A stretch of 64,000 nucleotides of DNA from Spirochaetota bacterium (GCA_016928865.1 JAFGJX010000120.1:1-64000); one strand, 5' to 3'; positions 45,497-53,130 are shown, numbered from the stretch's first letter. Made by a program: numbers and translations. Notes: generated from the sequence alone by a model not told the origin.

Positions 45497-47530
45497 ATGG
45501 TTTCGATCAGAACAACCTGTATAAAACGGTCATGGGCGCCGGTTCTTATCATGTCCATTCTCTGTTTGTATCCTCCGCTGGCCTTCTCCGAGATTCAGGA
45601 CATGGTCAAGTTCGAGGTTGCAAAGAATTATTACCGCCAGGGGTGCGCTCATTTTAATGCCATGCGGTATCTTGCCTCGGTTGAATTTTTTCGCAAGGCG
45701 GTGAAGGAATACCCTGATTATTACACTGCCCGTGATCACCTGGCCCGGGCGTACAAGCTCGCAGGCTTTGCTGACGCCGCTCTCAAGGAATGGGAGAACC
45801 TCGCCGAGATATCACCCGACAATGTCGCAGTCCTCTCAAAGATCGAGGGTCTTCGCTTTCAGGACGCCGCGCAGGAGCGGCCAATGGACGGATCGGAATA
45901 CGTGGAGTATGATGCGTATAAGTCATCCGCCTATAACCGGTATCGCTTTAAGAATCCGGTCGATATCGCTGTGGACACTGAAAAGAATATTTACATAACC
46001 TCCTTTTCAGAGGGATCCCTGGTCAAGCTCGATACCAACGGCCGCGGGGTTTTCTCCATAAAGACATCGATCTCCGGCACGCTCTACGGCGTTGACTGTC
46101 ACGAGGGTAAAATTGCCGTATCCGACTTCAGGGGCGACCGGATCTTTATTCTGGATGCGAACGGCGGCGTCCTGCTGCGATTCGGCGCAAGCGGCAATGG
46201 TGAAGGGAAATTTCATGGTCCGGAAGGCCTCTGCTTTAATGAAAAAGACGAGCTCTATGTAGTTGATTCGGGTAACAGCAGAGTCCAGAAATTCGATGAT
46301 AGCGGCAAATTCATCCTTCAGTTCGGCAAAAAGGGAGAGTACGAGGGCGAGCTTTCCAAGCCGACTGATGTTGTGACGTTCGGCGACAGGGTGTATGTTA
46401 CCGACACCGGGAATAAGCGTATCGCCTGCTTTGACGATTCAGGGAATTTTATAAAGAACATATCCGGCGAGGCGCTCGATTCCCCGCGGGGCATTACCCG
46501 CCACCGGGACCTGCTCCTGGTGTCTGATGAGAAGAAAGGGCCGGTTTTTTATCGGCCGGCGGAGAACGCGTTTGCGCCATTTGGCGAGGGATCGAGCCTG
46601 TCGCGTGCGGTGTCGTCAGCGGTGGACAGGGACGGCTACATCTATTGCCTCGATTATGACCGGGAGTCGGTCGTGCTGTTTTCCCCGGTGCAGAAGCAAT
46701 ACTCCAGCATGAGTCTCGAGATCACCTCGGTGGACACGGCGAGCTTCCCGGTCGTTGCATTTTACGTCAATGTCAGGAACAGGGACGGCAGCGCGGTCTA
46801 CGGGCTCGATAAGACCAATTTCACCATAACGGAAGACGGCGCCCTGATAACGAATATTTACAGCGATTATCTCAAGAGACTCATGCCGTCGGTTTCGATC
46901 TCCCTCTGCGTTGACCGGTCGAAAAATGCGGAGCGGTACCGAGGTGACCTCCCCTGGACCGCGGAGTTCATTCTTCAGAAGATGCGGAAAAACGATTCAT
47001 TAGAGGTGGTGAATTTCAACCGCGAATCGTGGGTCGGAAACAGGTTCGACTGGAGCAGGCGCAGGGCCCTTAAGGCCATCAGGGAGCGCGATTACGGGGA
47101 AGGGAAGAATATCGGCAAGGCCCTCTATGCGGCTATCAGCGACCTGGTGCCGCGGCTTAATCGCAGGGGCGTGGTCATGATTACGGACGGAAGCGTTGAC
47201 GGGGATTCATTCCGGAACTACACGCCGGAGAACATCATTAACTACGCAAAATCGCACTATATCCCAATTTACATTATCTCATTCCGCGAGCCGGACGAGA
47301 GGCTCAGGGACATAGCCGTGGAGACCGGCGGCGGCCTGTTCAGGCCCCGGGACGTGGACGGCCTCAGGTCGATCTATTCGCGCATCAAGAATGCTGAGGA
47401 ATACCGGTACGTGCTGGTATACTCCACCTTCAAGCTGAAATCGTTCAGGGGATGGTGGGCCGACGTAAAGATCGAGGCTGACCACAAGGGGCAGAAGGGC
47501 GTTGAGTGGGGCGGTTACTTTGTGCCGTAG
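45497..47530 (+). CDS. exported TPR-NHL-vWA protein
   Basis: The 677-residue protein has a signal peptide (about 1-31), a TPR-like stretch (about 40-110), NHL-type six-bladed propeller repeats (about 150-400; for example GPEGLCFNEKDELYVVDSGN and VTDTGNKRIACFDDSGNF), and a vWA domain (about 465-660). The MIDAS motif is DRSKN rather than DxSxS, so metal binding may be weakened. The later part keeps VVMITDGSVDG. It probably acts in the periplasm or at the surface as a scaffold. The pcm gene follows 15 bases later, so they share a transcript. Confidence 0.82.
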   Translation: MVSIRTTCIKRSWAPVLIMSILCLYPPLAFSEIQDMVKFEVAKNYYRQGCAHFNAMRYLASVEFFRKAVKEYPDYYTARDHLARAYKLAGFADAALKEWENLAEISPDNVAVLSKIEGLRFQDAAQERPMDGSEYVEYDAYKSSAYNRYRFKNPVDIAVDTEKNIYITSFSEGSLVKLDTNGRGVFSIKTSISGTLYGVDCHEGKIAVSDFRGDRIFILDANGGVLLRFGASGNGEGKFHGPEGLCFNEKDELYVVDSGNSRVQKFDDSGKFILQFGKKGEYEGELSKPTDVVTFGDRVYVTDTGNKRIACFDDSGNFIKNISGEALDSPRGITRHRDLLLVSDEKKGPVFYRPAENAFAPFGEGSSLSRAVSSAVDRDGYIYCLDYDRESVVLFSPVQKQYSSMSLEITSVDTASFPVVAFYVNVRNRDGSAVYGLDKTNFTITEDGALITNIYSDYLKRLMPSVSISLCVDRSKNAERYRGDLPWTAEFILQKMRKNDSLEVVNFNRESWVGNRFDWSRRRALKAIRERDYGEGKNIGKALYAAISDLVPRLNRRGVVMITDGSVDGDSFRNYTPENIINYAKSHYIPIYIISFREPDERLRDIAVETGGGLFRPRDVDGLRSIYSRIKNAEEYRYVLVYSTFKLKSFRGWWADVKIEADHKGQKGVEWGGYFVP

Positions 47531-49733: not shown

Positions 49734-50783
49734 TTAAAACCCTATGTAAAATCCCCGGTTCTGTACCGCCAGCTCTTTCAGGAAGTCGACCGCGTCCGAA
49801 TCTTCCTGATTTCGGAATTCAGTGCCGATGCCGACGGTAAATATCTTTTTATCGGACCTGTTCATGCCCCTGATCTTTTTAAGAAGTGCTTCCCTGGAGA
49901 GTTTTTTCTTTCGTATCGAATCCGGCTGTCCGTCGCTGAACAGGATGATTCCCGCGGCATCCTCGTACTTCCTGTTTGTGAGGACAAATTCGAGCGCCGT
50001 TTCGGTCGGCGTGTCGTGGTATGGCTGTAGGCAGGCTATCTTTTTATAAAAGCCGTACTTGTCGTTTTCCGAAAGGATGTTGACGAGCTTGCCCTCGAAG
50101 TATCCGTATTTGTAGCAGGTGAGGGCGGGGTTGTCATAGGCCTCGTCGCGCAACTCGTACTGTTTGCAGCGCCTGTCCGGCTCCGGTCGTATCGTGAACC
50201 CGGGATATACCTCCCTGTTGATGTTTTCCGAGAAAGCGGGGAAGTAGACTATATCGATCCAGTAGCGCTCGTCCATGGCCGCGATAAACATTTTGAGAGC
50301 GGCCTTGACCTGGGAAAGCCGGTCCTCCCGGTATTTATTGTTTTCCGCAGCCATGCTTCCGGAAAGGTCGACAACCATCACGATTTTATGTGGGATCCTG
50401 AAGGCGATCAGCTCGCTCGTGTCGTCGGCCGCCTTGAACAGCTCGTTCTTGATCTCGGATATTTTTTTCATGACGTTCGCGAATTTCTCGGTCGTCGCAT
50501 CGATGATCTTCGTGATGGACGATATCTTTTCGATAGTCCGCGGGTGCTCCGTCCGGTATGCCTGGAGCTCCTTCCTTGTCTCCGCCAGCTCCTCGGTCGT
50601 TTTCGCGAGCTCGTTTGACGCGGTGATCAGCTCGGACTTGACGTCCTGGCAGGTCATCGATTCCACGTCGATTTTCTGCGTCAGCAGAATCAGCATCAGT
50701 ATCATGACCGCGCCAAGTGCGCCGCAGATGGTGTCGAGCATAGATATATTAAAGCTGTTTATTTCCCTGTTCGGACGTTTCAT
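49734..50783 (-). CDS. vWA-domain membrane protein with ExbD-like TM segment
   Basis: In 349 residues there is a short cytoplasmic end, a single membrane helix (about 18-35) preceded by FNISMLDTICGALG, a coiled coil (about 45-120) and a vWA domain (about 130-349) with an intact MIDAS start (DLSGSM) and IILFSDGQPD. Asp17 before the helix matches the place of ExbD Asp25 and MotB Asp32, which carry protons. The TolQ-like gene's TGA shares one base with this ATG (TGATG), so translation is coupled. It is likely the power-receiving partner of the channel, with the vWA domain in the periplasm. Confidence 0.85.
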   Translation of the reverse strand: MKRPNREINSFNISMLDTICGALGAVMILMLILLTQKIDVESMTCQDVKSELITASNELAKTTEELAETRKELQAYRTEHPRTIEKISSITKIIDATTEKFANVMKKISEIKNELFKAADDTSELIAFRIPHKIVMVVDLSGSMAAENNKYREDRLSQVKAALKMFIAAMDERYWIDIVYFPAFSENINREVYPGFTIRPEPDRRCKQYELRDEAYDNPALTCYKYGYFEGKLVNILSENDKYGFYKKIACLQPYHDTPTETALEFVLTNRKYEDAAGIILFSDGQPDSIRKKKLSREALLKKIRGMNRSDKKIFTVGIGTEFRNQEDSDAVDFLKELAVQNRGFYIGF

Positions 50784-51577
50784 CAGCTGTTCCGCTTGCC
50801 CGTGACATGAAGCCTGTTAATCAGGTTTGTCAGCACGTACTTGCCCGACCTGTTCAGCGCGTTTTCCTCGCCCCGCTGCACCACGTTCCACAGGAAGACC
50901 AGAATGGCGCTCAGGGCGAGGGCGACGATCGTGGTTCCGAACGCGAAGCCGAGGTCCGCCGTGATCTCCTTGAATATCATGACCTTCTCCGTGGTCGCTC
51001 CCATGAATTTATTGATGTCCATCCGGCCCAGAGCGTTTGCGATGCCGATTACCGTCCCCATGAATCCGAAGGTCGGTATGGCCCAAACCAGGTACCTTAT
51101 GATTGAATAATTAAGGTCGAGACGATGGATGTTCAGGTCAAGATTGCTGTTCAGCACGGAGATGGTGTCGCTGATCGAGTGGGATTTGGTGTACTGGATG
51201 ATGCTGTTGTTTATCAGGTCCGGGAGAAATGCCCCGGCCCGCACCGCGGCGTTGGCCACATTGATCCTGATTGTCTCGATGTCCGCGTCGCTTTCCAGGA
51301 GCACGCCGTCTTCTTCGGGAAGAAAACCTGATTGAGAGAGGAATACGGTCTCTTCGTAGGTGCAGAGCCACCGGACCCAGAGCTGCCCGAGCCCGATGAA
51401 GAAGAGCAGGTGCATCAGGTTCTGGAGGGAGAACGGGTAGACCTTCGAACCGGTTTCCCCGATCAGTATGTTACCCCAGAAGCTGCCCCCGATAAAAACC
51501 GTCAGGAGGGCGATTGCGATGATTGCGACGGCGACCGAGGCGCCGAGCGCGATCCAGTTTCTGACAGAATAATTCAT
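50783..51577 (-). CDS. MotA/TolQ/ExbB proton-channel family protein
   Basis: The 264-residue protein starts at ATG 51577; GGAG lies about 8 bases before it, while the frame opens further out at 51664. Helices are at about 8-30, 48-68, 162-185 and 205-232, with a long cytoplasmic loop between the second and third. IPTFGFMGTVIGIANAL and GFAFGTTIVALALSAIL hold the small and Thr residues that line the TolQ/ExbB channel. It would form a pentamer around two copies of an ExbD-like partner, here probably the vWA protein encoded next. The upstream neighbour is the predicted outer-envelope coiled-coil protein, 32 bases away. Confidence 0.9.
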   Translation of the reverse strand: MNYSVRNWIALGASVAVAIIAIALLTVFIGGSFWGNILIGETGSKVYPFSLQNLMHLLFFIGLGQLWVRWLCTYEETVFLSQSGFLPEEDGVLLESDADIETIRINVANAAVRAGAFLPDLINNSIIQYTKSHSISDTISVLNSNLDLNIHRLDLNYSIIRYLVWAIPTFGFMGTVIGIANALGRMDINKFMGATTEKVMIFKEITADLGFAFGTTIVALALSAILVFLWNVVQRGEENALNRSGKYVLTNLINRLHVTGKRNS

Positions 51578-51609
51578 GTGTGATGCTCCTTTACCTGATT
51601 GAGTGCCAT

Positions 51610-53130
51610 TTATTTTCTCGGAACGCATTCCCCCTTTTCGTCCCGGTAATAGCCGTCTTTGCATACGCAGGCGTTTTTACGGTCCGACCACGCTTCGTTT
51701 TTCTTCGAGCATTTTTTTATACATATATACTTGTTCGGCCCTTTCCAGTGGCGCACCTTTTTTTCATCCGGCCCGCACGCGTCCGTGCACGCGCCGTAGT
51801 AGTTGACCAGCTCGCATGGCTCGCACCGGTCCGTTGTACTGTTCAGTTCGTATCCCTTGACGCACACGCAGGCGCTCCGGTCGGAGTTCCACTGCTCGTG
51901 CTCGCGGCAGTCACAGTAGCCGTATTCGTTAATGATCCCGCGCCGGGCCGCGCATTCTGCCTCAAGCTTTTCCCTCTTCCTCTTCTGGACCGCGTGTTCT
52001 TTTTCCCAGCTCTCTTTCTGCCGCTTGAATTCCTGGAATTCCCTGTCGAGCTCGACCTGCCGCTGCTCCACCCGTTTTTCTTCCGCCTTTCTCGCTTCGC
52101 CGGCAAGCCTATCCCTGATAGAGGCCTTAGCCTGATCGAGCTCTTTTTGCTTCATGAGCAGATCGCTTTCCCTGTCATCGAGCTTGCGTTTGGCCTGGGA
52201 CAGCTGGTCCCTGGTGGAAACAAGCTCGGTCCTGGTGCTTTCGAGTTCACGTTTCATGCCGGAGAGCTGGTCCCTGGCGCTCATCAGCTTCCCCCGCGTA
52301 TCGGATAGCTCGTCCACGGTCGTGTCGAGGTTCTCTTTTATGCCGGCAAGCTCCGATTTCGTTCCCGACAGCTCGTTTCTGGTCCTGGCGAGACTGTCCG
52401 ACGTTGCTTTAAGCTCGTCCCGTGCTGTGTCCAGCCTGCCCTTTGTCGCGTCCAGTTCGCCCCGCGTTCTGCCGAGCTCTCCGGCGGTTTTGTCGAGCTC
52501 GCCTTTTGTCGCGTCCAGCGTTTTGCTCAGCTCGCCGTATCTGTCTCGCGAATCGTCGAGCTCTTCCTGGAGCGACCGCTGCCGGGCCAGCATTTTTGAA
52601 ACACCGCCGAAATTATACCGCGCCGCGATGCCCCAGTTGGCGTCGAACTTGTTTTTCGGGGTTATAAGATAGGCCGGGGCCGCGAAGAGTGACAGGGTCA
52701 GCGGATATTTGGTGAAGGGCATTGAGAGCCCGATGGTCGCCCGGACGTTGCTGTAAAAGTCCTTGTCCTGGTAGTCATATCCGACAAGCCCGCCGACGCC
52801 GTAAAAGAAGCGCAGGTGCAGGTCGGCCGACCGGTAGAGCGTGAGATGCTCGAAGAGGAAATCCAGGGTAAATACGAAGTCCCGCCTGATCGTGGATCCG
52901 ATGGTGAAGTCGATGCCGAAGATATCGACGATCCACCACCGCGCGTTTATGCCGGAGGGCATCCCCGCCACGCCCCCAAGCTCAAAGTTGCCCTTCTGCG
53001 AGAAGGGATAGAGCTCCGCCATGGATGCAGGCTTGCTCTGTTTCGGCGCCGTATCTGCCGCTGTCCCGAAAACAGGAAGCAGGCCCACGCAGATACAGGT
53101 AAGGGATATGATGACCAGCTTGCTTTTCAT
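51610..53130 (-). CDS. exported protein: barrel-like region, long coiled coil, Cys-rich end
   Basis: The 506-residue protein has a signal peptide (about 1-24). Residues about 48-176 alternate hydrophobic and polar positions with aromatic ends (FELGGVAGMPSGINARWW, then NWGIAARYNFGG), like outer-membrane beta-barrel strands. A heptad coiled coil covers about 180-390, with repeated xELxxTR units. Residues 393-506 hold 14 Cys (CDC, CVC, CEPC, CKDGYY) in an EGF-like pattern. This is the first gene of the TolQ-vWA cluster. The coiled coil could span the periplasm. No family is recognised. Confidence 0.78.
   Translation of the reverse strand: MKSKLVIISLTCICVGLLPVFGTAADTAPKQSKPASMAELYPFSQKGNFELGGVAGMPSGINARWWIVDIFGIDFTIGSTIRRDFVFTLDFLFEHLTLYRSADLHLRFFYGVGGLVGYDYQDKDFYSNVRATIGLSMPFTKYPLTLSLFAAPAYLITPKNKFDANWGIAARYNFGGVSKMLARQRSLQEELDDSRDRYGELSKTLDATKGELDKTAGELGRTRGELDATKGRLDTARDELKATSDSLARTRNELSGTKSELAGIKENLDTTVDELSDTRGKLMSARDQLSGMKRELESTRTELVSTRDQLSQAKRKLDDRESDLLMKQKELDQAKASIRDRLAGEARKAEEKRVEQRQVELDREFQEFKRQKESWEKEHAVQKRKREKLEAECAARRGIINEYGYCDCREHEQWNSDRSACVCVKGYELNSTTDRCEPCELVNYYGACTDACGPDEKKVRHWKGPNKYICIKKCSKKNEAWSDRKNACVCKDGYYRDEKGECVPRK

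Follow-up and report, generated by a model that had tools for sequence, protein, structure and literature searches.

Described relatives and the three-gene locus

How energy is transferred from the inner to the outer membrane of bacteria is an open question with few worked examples. Among described systems, the closest to the one considered here are vWA (von Willebrand factor A) proteins found together with TolQ homologues where TolR/ExbD is missing (PMC12204202, Mol Biol Evol 2025). In that study the helix of a second vWA family, predicted to sit within the pentamer, bears the proton Asp, and force transduction is given as a possible role; the vWA motors, found in Proteobacteria and Verrucomicrobia, are predominantly though not universally built from two different vWA genes. 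Here we describe a three-gene locus on the minus strand of a 64,000-nucleotide stretch from a Spirochaetota bacterium (GCA_016928865.1, JAFGJX010000120.1:1-64000; this whole stretch is called the window), in which positions 49734-53130 encode an exported protein (hereafter the third protein), then a MotA/TolQ/ExbB-type channel and then a vWA protein. Similar to the motors of PMC12204202, this trio has a vWA gene beside a tolQ homologue, a conserved Asp in the helix and no tolR/exbD gene; compared by description, it differs from them in having one vWA gene, in its occurrence in spirochaetes and another phylum, and in its dedicated outer-membrane partner. The section of that paper on vWA motors contains no outer-membrane barrel partner, and its text has neither ‘Spirochaet’ nor ‘coiled-coil’. 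Taken together, our analysis gives a somewhat better than even chance that the three genes make one trans-envelope machine, a 5:2 proton motor whose dimeric vWA-headed subunit acts on a coiled arm anchored in the outer membrane. An earlier reading of the window, made from the sequence only, had held that no such trio was described, a claim that fails for the combination of TolQ with an Asp-helix vWA motor, since this is predicted in PMC12204202, and holds for the barrel, coiled-coil and Cys-rich partner; among open-licence papers we found none on the trio. What is new is the single vWA gene together with its dedicated outer-membrane partner, the vWA-bearing 5:2 motor having already been predicted.

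The third-protein gene (51610-53130, 506 residues, from its open reading frame and translation) is followed by the channel gene (50783-51577, 264 residues, identified by its PF01618 match) and by the gene of the vWA protein (49734-50783, 349 residues), a candidate motor B-subunit with one membrane helix according to its VWA_2 match, model and Foldseek results. An AAGGAG ribosome site stands upstream of the channel start at 51577, which comes 32 bases past the stop of the third-protein gene, and the ATG of the vWA gene has one base in common with the channel TGA. The sequence-only reading had called three real genes here, and the reading frames, the 32-base gap and the one-base overlap all bear it out. 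A longer channel frame of 293 residues, with its start at 51664, extends into the third-protein gene, is unneeded and was set aside, and a scan for promoters and terminators gave signals scarcely above those of shuffled sequence.

Better-known envelope motors resemble the trio in part. Like TolQRA-Pal and ExbBD-TonB it has a PF01618 channel, a single-helix partner with an Asp and, presumably, a coupling to the outer membrane, but it is without a TolR/ExbD domain, TolA or TonB, and its long reach would come from the outer-membrane side. AglRQS/GltG-CglB of Myxococcus gliding and GldLM likewise apply a 5:2-type motor to periplasmic parts, and CglB has a vWA domain; in the trio, however, the vWA domain is fused to the motor subunit and there is no gliding gene set. 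Zorya ZorAB shares the MotA-like channel and single-helix B-subunit, whereas the trio is without the long ZorA tail, the peptidoglycan domain and adjoining ZorC, ZorD or ZorE. We rejected membership in Zorya on the weak best PADLOC scores (14.9 bits for ZorA and 12.3 bits for ZorB) and on the lack of ZorC-E neighbours.

Joint occurrence and inheritance

Of 393 spirochaete genomes, 7 carry full-length relatives of the vWA protein, each a member of the window's order, and the channel profile is full-length in the same seven, as is, in exactly those genomes (7/46 in the order), the profile of the third protein. The three genes are adjacent and in the same order in 7/7, and no other window gene recurs beside them. 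All three were also found in one small non-spirochaete phylum (28 genomes), where the channel and vWA genes adjoin each other (L012-L014) and the full-length third protein is on another contig; its profile is full-length in exactly 3/28 genomes, those with the motor pair. Neither a pair without the third protein nor a third protein without the pair occurs among the 393 spirochaete and 28 second-phylum genomes, and outside the trio genomes the third-protein profile meets only small stand-alone barrels or coil. Our first view from gene neighbourhoods, that the third protein was absent from the second phylum, was refuted by the homologues on other contigs, and an EGF-rich lipoprotein beside the L012 pair was dropped as a substitute partner once the true homologue was found. 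The trio is therefore together in 10/10 genomes with gene adjacency in 7/10, and the search for the three genes together that was suggested with the sequence-only reading, made in near relatives and two phyla, came out in its favour. As judged from these sequences the trio is an association beyond chance, because homologues of all three proteins occur together in other genomes.

One vWA gene is present at each of the ten loci. An ExbD/TolR gene beside the pair was not found at these loci, nor was a gliding gene set or a group of conserved signalling genes beside the trio, and there is no TolA or TonB transducer among the trio neighbours or the Pfam matches of the three proteins. Plasmid relatives of the vWA protein were also not found. 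In the second phylum we observed EGF-like or otherwise Cys-rich lipoproteins near trio genes (L012 4760-5809, L045 317-1804 and L044 1801-4050). One of its contigs (L013, DYRY01000006.1) is titled Anaeromyxobacter dehalogenans, but a genome search places it in the same small phylum as two metagenome-assembled genomes, one of which has a channel 94% identical to its own, and the title is probably wrong.

Within the spirochaetes the pairwise distances of the three proteins are concordant (r 0.92-0.95; permutation p ~0.001). By identity, the copies closest to those of the window are in genomes G023 and G016, and the most distant ones are in G018/G009. RpoB instead groups the window genome first with G016 and next with G018/G009, and it puts G023 beside G033/G024. 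Moreover, the window's five congeners are without the trio, four of the five being 89-94% identical to the window genome in RpoB. Because the three gene histories agree mutually but conflict with RpoB, joint transfer of the trio between lineages, as a single unit, is the simplest explanation, the alternative being differential loss of old copies.

Parts of the putative machine

The channel matches Pfam MotA_ExbB (PF01618) at 39.2 bits (cut-off 22.9). Its Thr175 and Thr216, which lie in the last two helices and which we equate with the pore threonines of TolQ/ExbB, are invariant in 10/10 homologues, and Thr175 is invariant also across TolQ, MotA and other channels. Hydropathy gives strong first and last helices with residues 51-72 under the threshold used, so that there are three or four helices, and a PDB sequence search with the channel and the vWA protein returned no useful match. 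By analogy with related motors, the channel would form a pentamer around a vWA dimer (5:2). The window genome has three further channels of the MotA/TolQ/ExbB family, with an ExbD-like and a MotB-like gene beside two of them.

The vWA protein matches Pfam VWA_2 (32.2 bits, cut-off 27) and is without an ExbD/TolR domain (PF02472), its periplasmic part being the vWA domain. Hydropathy shows one strong helix, at about residues 10-38 (50670-50756), which includes Asp17 (codon 50733-50735). The sequence-only reading could have fallen on the conservation of Asp17, yet this residue is invariant in 10/10 homologues; its supposed place just before the helix did need correction, as it lies instead inside the modelled helix 9-36 (low confidence), near the N-terminal end. 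In the AlphaFold2 models, which here and below are single chains built with ten-sequence alignments, the vWA domain (residues 130-349; 49737-50396) sits on a two-helix stalk (about residues 39-129; 50397-50669; helices 45-79 and 81-116, of moderate confidence), and most vWA blocks have a predicted local distance difference test score (pLDDT) above 82. The best Foldseek matches in the PDB are vWA-bearing proteins, for example inter-alpha-inhibitor heavy chain 1. The residues of the metal site (the metal-ion-dependent adhesion site, MIDAS), namely D139, S141 and S143 of the motif D139-x-S-x-S143, T258/T260 and D284, are invariant in 10/10, as are three Cys of the head that lie within an insert; the site is complete in sequence, and metal dependence of the heads is putative. 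The stalk is 87-90 residues long in all spirochaetes, where Cys45, just outside the membrane, is also kept, in spirochaetes only, and could form an inter-subunit disulfide. Elsewhere in the window (45497-47530, plus strand) there is an exported 677-residue protein with NHL propeller repeats, whose C-terminal part appears vWA-like by eye (MITDG) and has no Pfam vWA match.

A pair on Rhizobium leguminosarum plasmid pRlBT01d (L061 5875-7485) has a channel 41% identical to that of the window, and its partner, just downstream, matches the vWA protein at 33% over 97 residues, covering helix and stalk only and including the same Asp. The head of this partner has no vWA domain and no Pfam match, and the third protein was not seen beside the pair. 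Because the Rhizobium partner matches over helix and stalk but has a different head, these sequences suggest that the motor base might be a platform able to carry exchangeable heads. The surroundings of the Rhizobium pair (L061 4692-12648, an unannotated record) contain PP2C phosphatase-like and Ser/Thr kinase-like genes and a 1540-residue low-complexity exported protein. More distant channels in genomes G020 and G086 belong to other systems and stand beside different Asp-helix partners. In the former (L093 4188-6383) the genes of two unlike single-helix proteins come after a MotA-like channel, and these might form a heterodimer motor of a separate type. In the latter (L094 3687-5811), a locus cut off by the contig end, the channel has 524 residues, with a large additional region at its N-terminus, and the single-helix protein that comes next has the Asp motif but another periplasmic part. 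A short MAFFT alignment of the helices, in which the MotB Asp was not lined up, was left unused.

The third protein begins with a signal peptide region (about residues 1-25; 53056-53130), recognised by a hydrophobic N-terminus in 10/10 homologues and a model helix at 2-17, with the cleavage site placed by eye. Residues 49-173 (52612-52986) are modelled as exactly eight beta strands with pLDDT mostly 85-92, and the best PDB match is the N-terminal 8-strand barrel of OprF (4rlc, E 1.4e-4); a designed barrel, Ail, OmpW and PagL come next. The sequence-only reading had seen a barrel-like region at residues 48-176 and named a soluble fold there as its refutation; the outer-membrane-type barrel of the AlphaFold2 model speaks for the former. 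In Pfam the whole protein has sub-threshold matches only, chiefly to coiled coil, and its barrel in the window has no direct match, DUF3996 included. The third-protein profile does, however, reach stand-alone barrels, and 4/5 of these match DUF3996 above its cut-off, a family which we take to be that of Borrelia BAPKO_0422. BAPKO_0422 and a neighbouring Borrelia protein have been reported as 8-strand barrels (PMC4939628). DUF3996 proteins of this type (BAPKO_0422/BB0405) are thus similar in their small 8-strand, profile-linked barrel, but they consist of the barrel only, while the third protein adds a coil and a Cys-rich tail. Stand-alone 8-strand-type DUF3996 barrels are also found in trio genomes of both phyla (L046, L047, L048, L049, L050 and L051) and, by profile, in many other spirochaetes.

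Beyond the barrel lies the coil (residues 174-392; 51955-52611), with L-x-x-T type heptads and model helices at 174-247, 259-341 and 345-395, and its Leu residues are concentrated in one heptad phase. From the barrel end to the first tail Cys we count 218, 211, 204, 197, 190, 190 and 183 residues in the seven spirochaetes, all of the form 7n+1, and 152, 180 and 180 in the other phylum, all 7n+5; by our own arithmetic, which ignores ancestry, six distinct lengths in one class modulo 7 have a chance of about 7^-5 if random. As judged from phase and length, this is a true coiled coil whose register is kept while its length drifts, and the coiled coil of about 200 residues claimed earlier becomes a heptad coil of about 218. 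Recent slippage of DNA repeats was considered as the source of the quantised length and rejected, there being no 21-base tandem array in the window. The beta-rich tail (residues 393-506; 51613-51954) contains, as had been noted before, 14 Cys, counted from residue 393 on; all are invariant in 10/10 homologues, with two additional Cys in the other phylum, and Pfam gives the tail a weak TIL match below threshold. The even number of strands leaves both barrel ends periplasmic, and therefore, if the model is right, the coil of a third protein anchored in the outer membrane should be directed inwards.

A proposed mechanism and its rivals

In the motor that we favour, a channel pentamer in the inner membrane would enclose the membrane helices of two vWA proteins, and protons would move past Asp17 and a ring formed by the pore Thr residues, so that the vWA dimer might turn or shift relative to the pentamer; proton use, stoichiometry and movement are here drawn by analogy. 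A separate TolR/ExbD would be unnecessary, as the dimer's own stalk would hold two vWA heads, putatively metal-dependent, in the periplasm. The barrel of the third protein would sit in the outer membrane, with the coil reaching inwards and presenting a disulfide-rich tip. Co-occurrence and geometry together point to contact between head and arm, and the heads would most likely grip the tip or the coil, through which proton flow may pull or twist the outer-membrane anchor. The sequence-only reading, in which proton flow could move or load the vWA domain and this may act on or through the coiled-coil protein, is thereby supported in part. As to cellular purpose, we would guess, by analogy with Tol-Pal, that the machine most likely tethers or remodels the outer membrane.

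Several observations weigh against this machine. The membrane part of the vWA model is of low confidence, and the single-chain models contain no complex. Straight, the stalk and coil would overfill the usual periplasm, and their summed length (262-310 residues) is not constant, so that a fixed end-to-end span is unsupported and the idea of a ruler was abandoned. Moreover, the trio genomes of the second phylum are related (channels 74-94% identical) and do not represent three independent events, and there the third gene is unlinked to the motor pair. This last point also favours a different and rather unlikely arrangement, in which peptidoglycan, a secreted substrate or a different outer-membrane protein is what the motor pair works on in the periplasm, and the third protein serves the same process as a passive tether or spacer that never touches the head. 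That the coil length is free by heptads while the spirochaete vWA stalk stays at 87-90 residues would fit such an arrangement, as would the Rhizobium relative, whose different head allows that the motor base may have several targets, but pair and third protein are strictly together in both phyla, and the joint history of the three genes likewise speaks against it.

We regard as improbable a motor for surface motility or adhesion, in which the vWA head would drive a contact that spans the envelope, on the pattern of AglRQS and the vWA adhesin CglB of Myxococcus. Adhesins are among the vWA folds, and gliding has been suggested as a possible role of vWA-bearing motors (PMC12204202). In the trio, however, the head is fused to an inner-membrane subunit and is periplasmic, and the ten loci have, as said, no gliding gene set beside the trio. 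Very improbable, too, is a Ton-type energised import or export gate with the barrel as gated pore: an inner-membrane motor plus an outer-membrane barrel would suit it, but neither a plug domain nor a TonB-like transducer was found, and eight-strand OmpA/OprF-type barrels have almost no pore. We give as little credence to a regulated proton channel or envelope sensor, in which ligand binding to the vWA head would gate the channel, the gating itself being the signal and no mechanical work being done, as the same parts would fit and the Rhizobium relative adjoins genes resembling, by sequence appearance, a Ser/Thr kinase and PP2C phosphatases, but conserved signalling genes are not found beside the trio.

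If the proton motor is correct, one protein of this small, self-contained gene set can be assigned to each of the roles of motor, gripping head and outer-membrane handle; their co-occurrence is strict in two phyla. By giving the head a likely target, the trio opens the vWA-bearing motors predicted in 2025 to testing. We tentatively suggest, at somewhat below even confidence, that it represents, next to Ton and Tol, a third way of energising the outer membrane, with metal-dependent vWA heads on the rotor dimer, a reach from the outer-membrane side through a dedicated barrel, heptad coil and disulfide tip, and a transferable three-gene cassette; it may be a new route for energy across the bacterial envelope.

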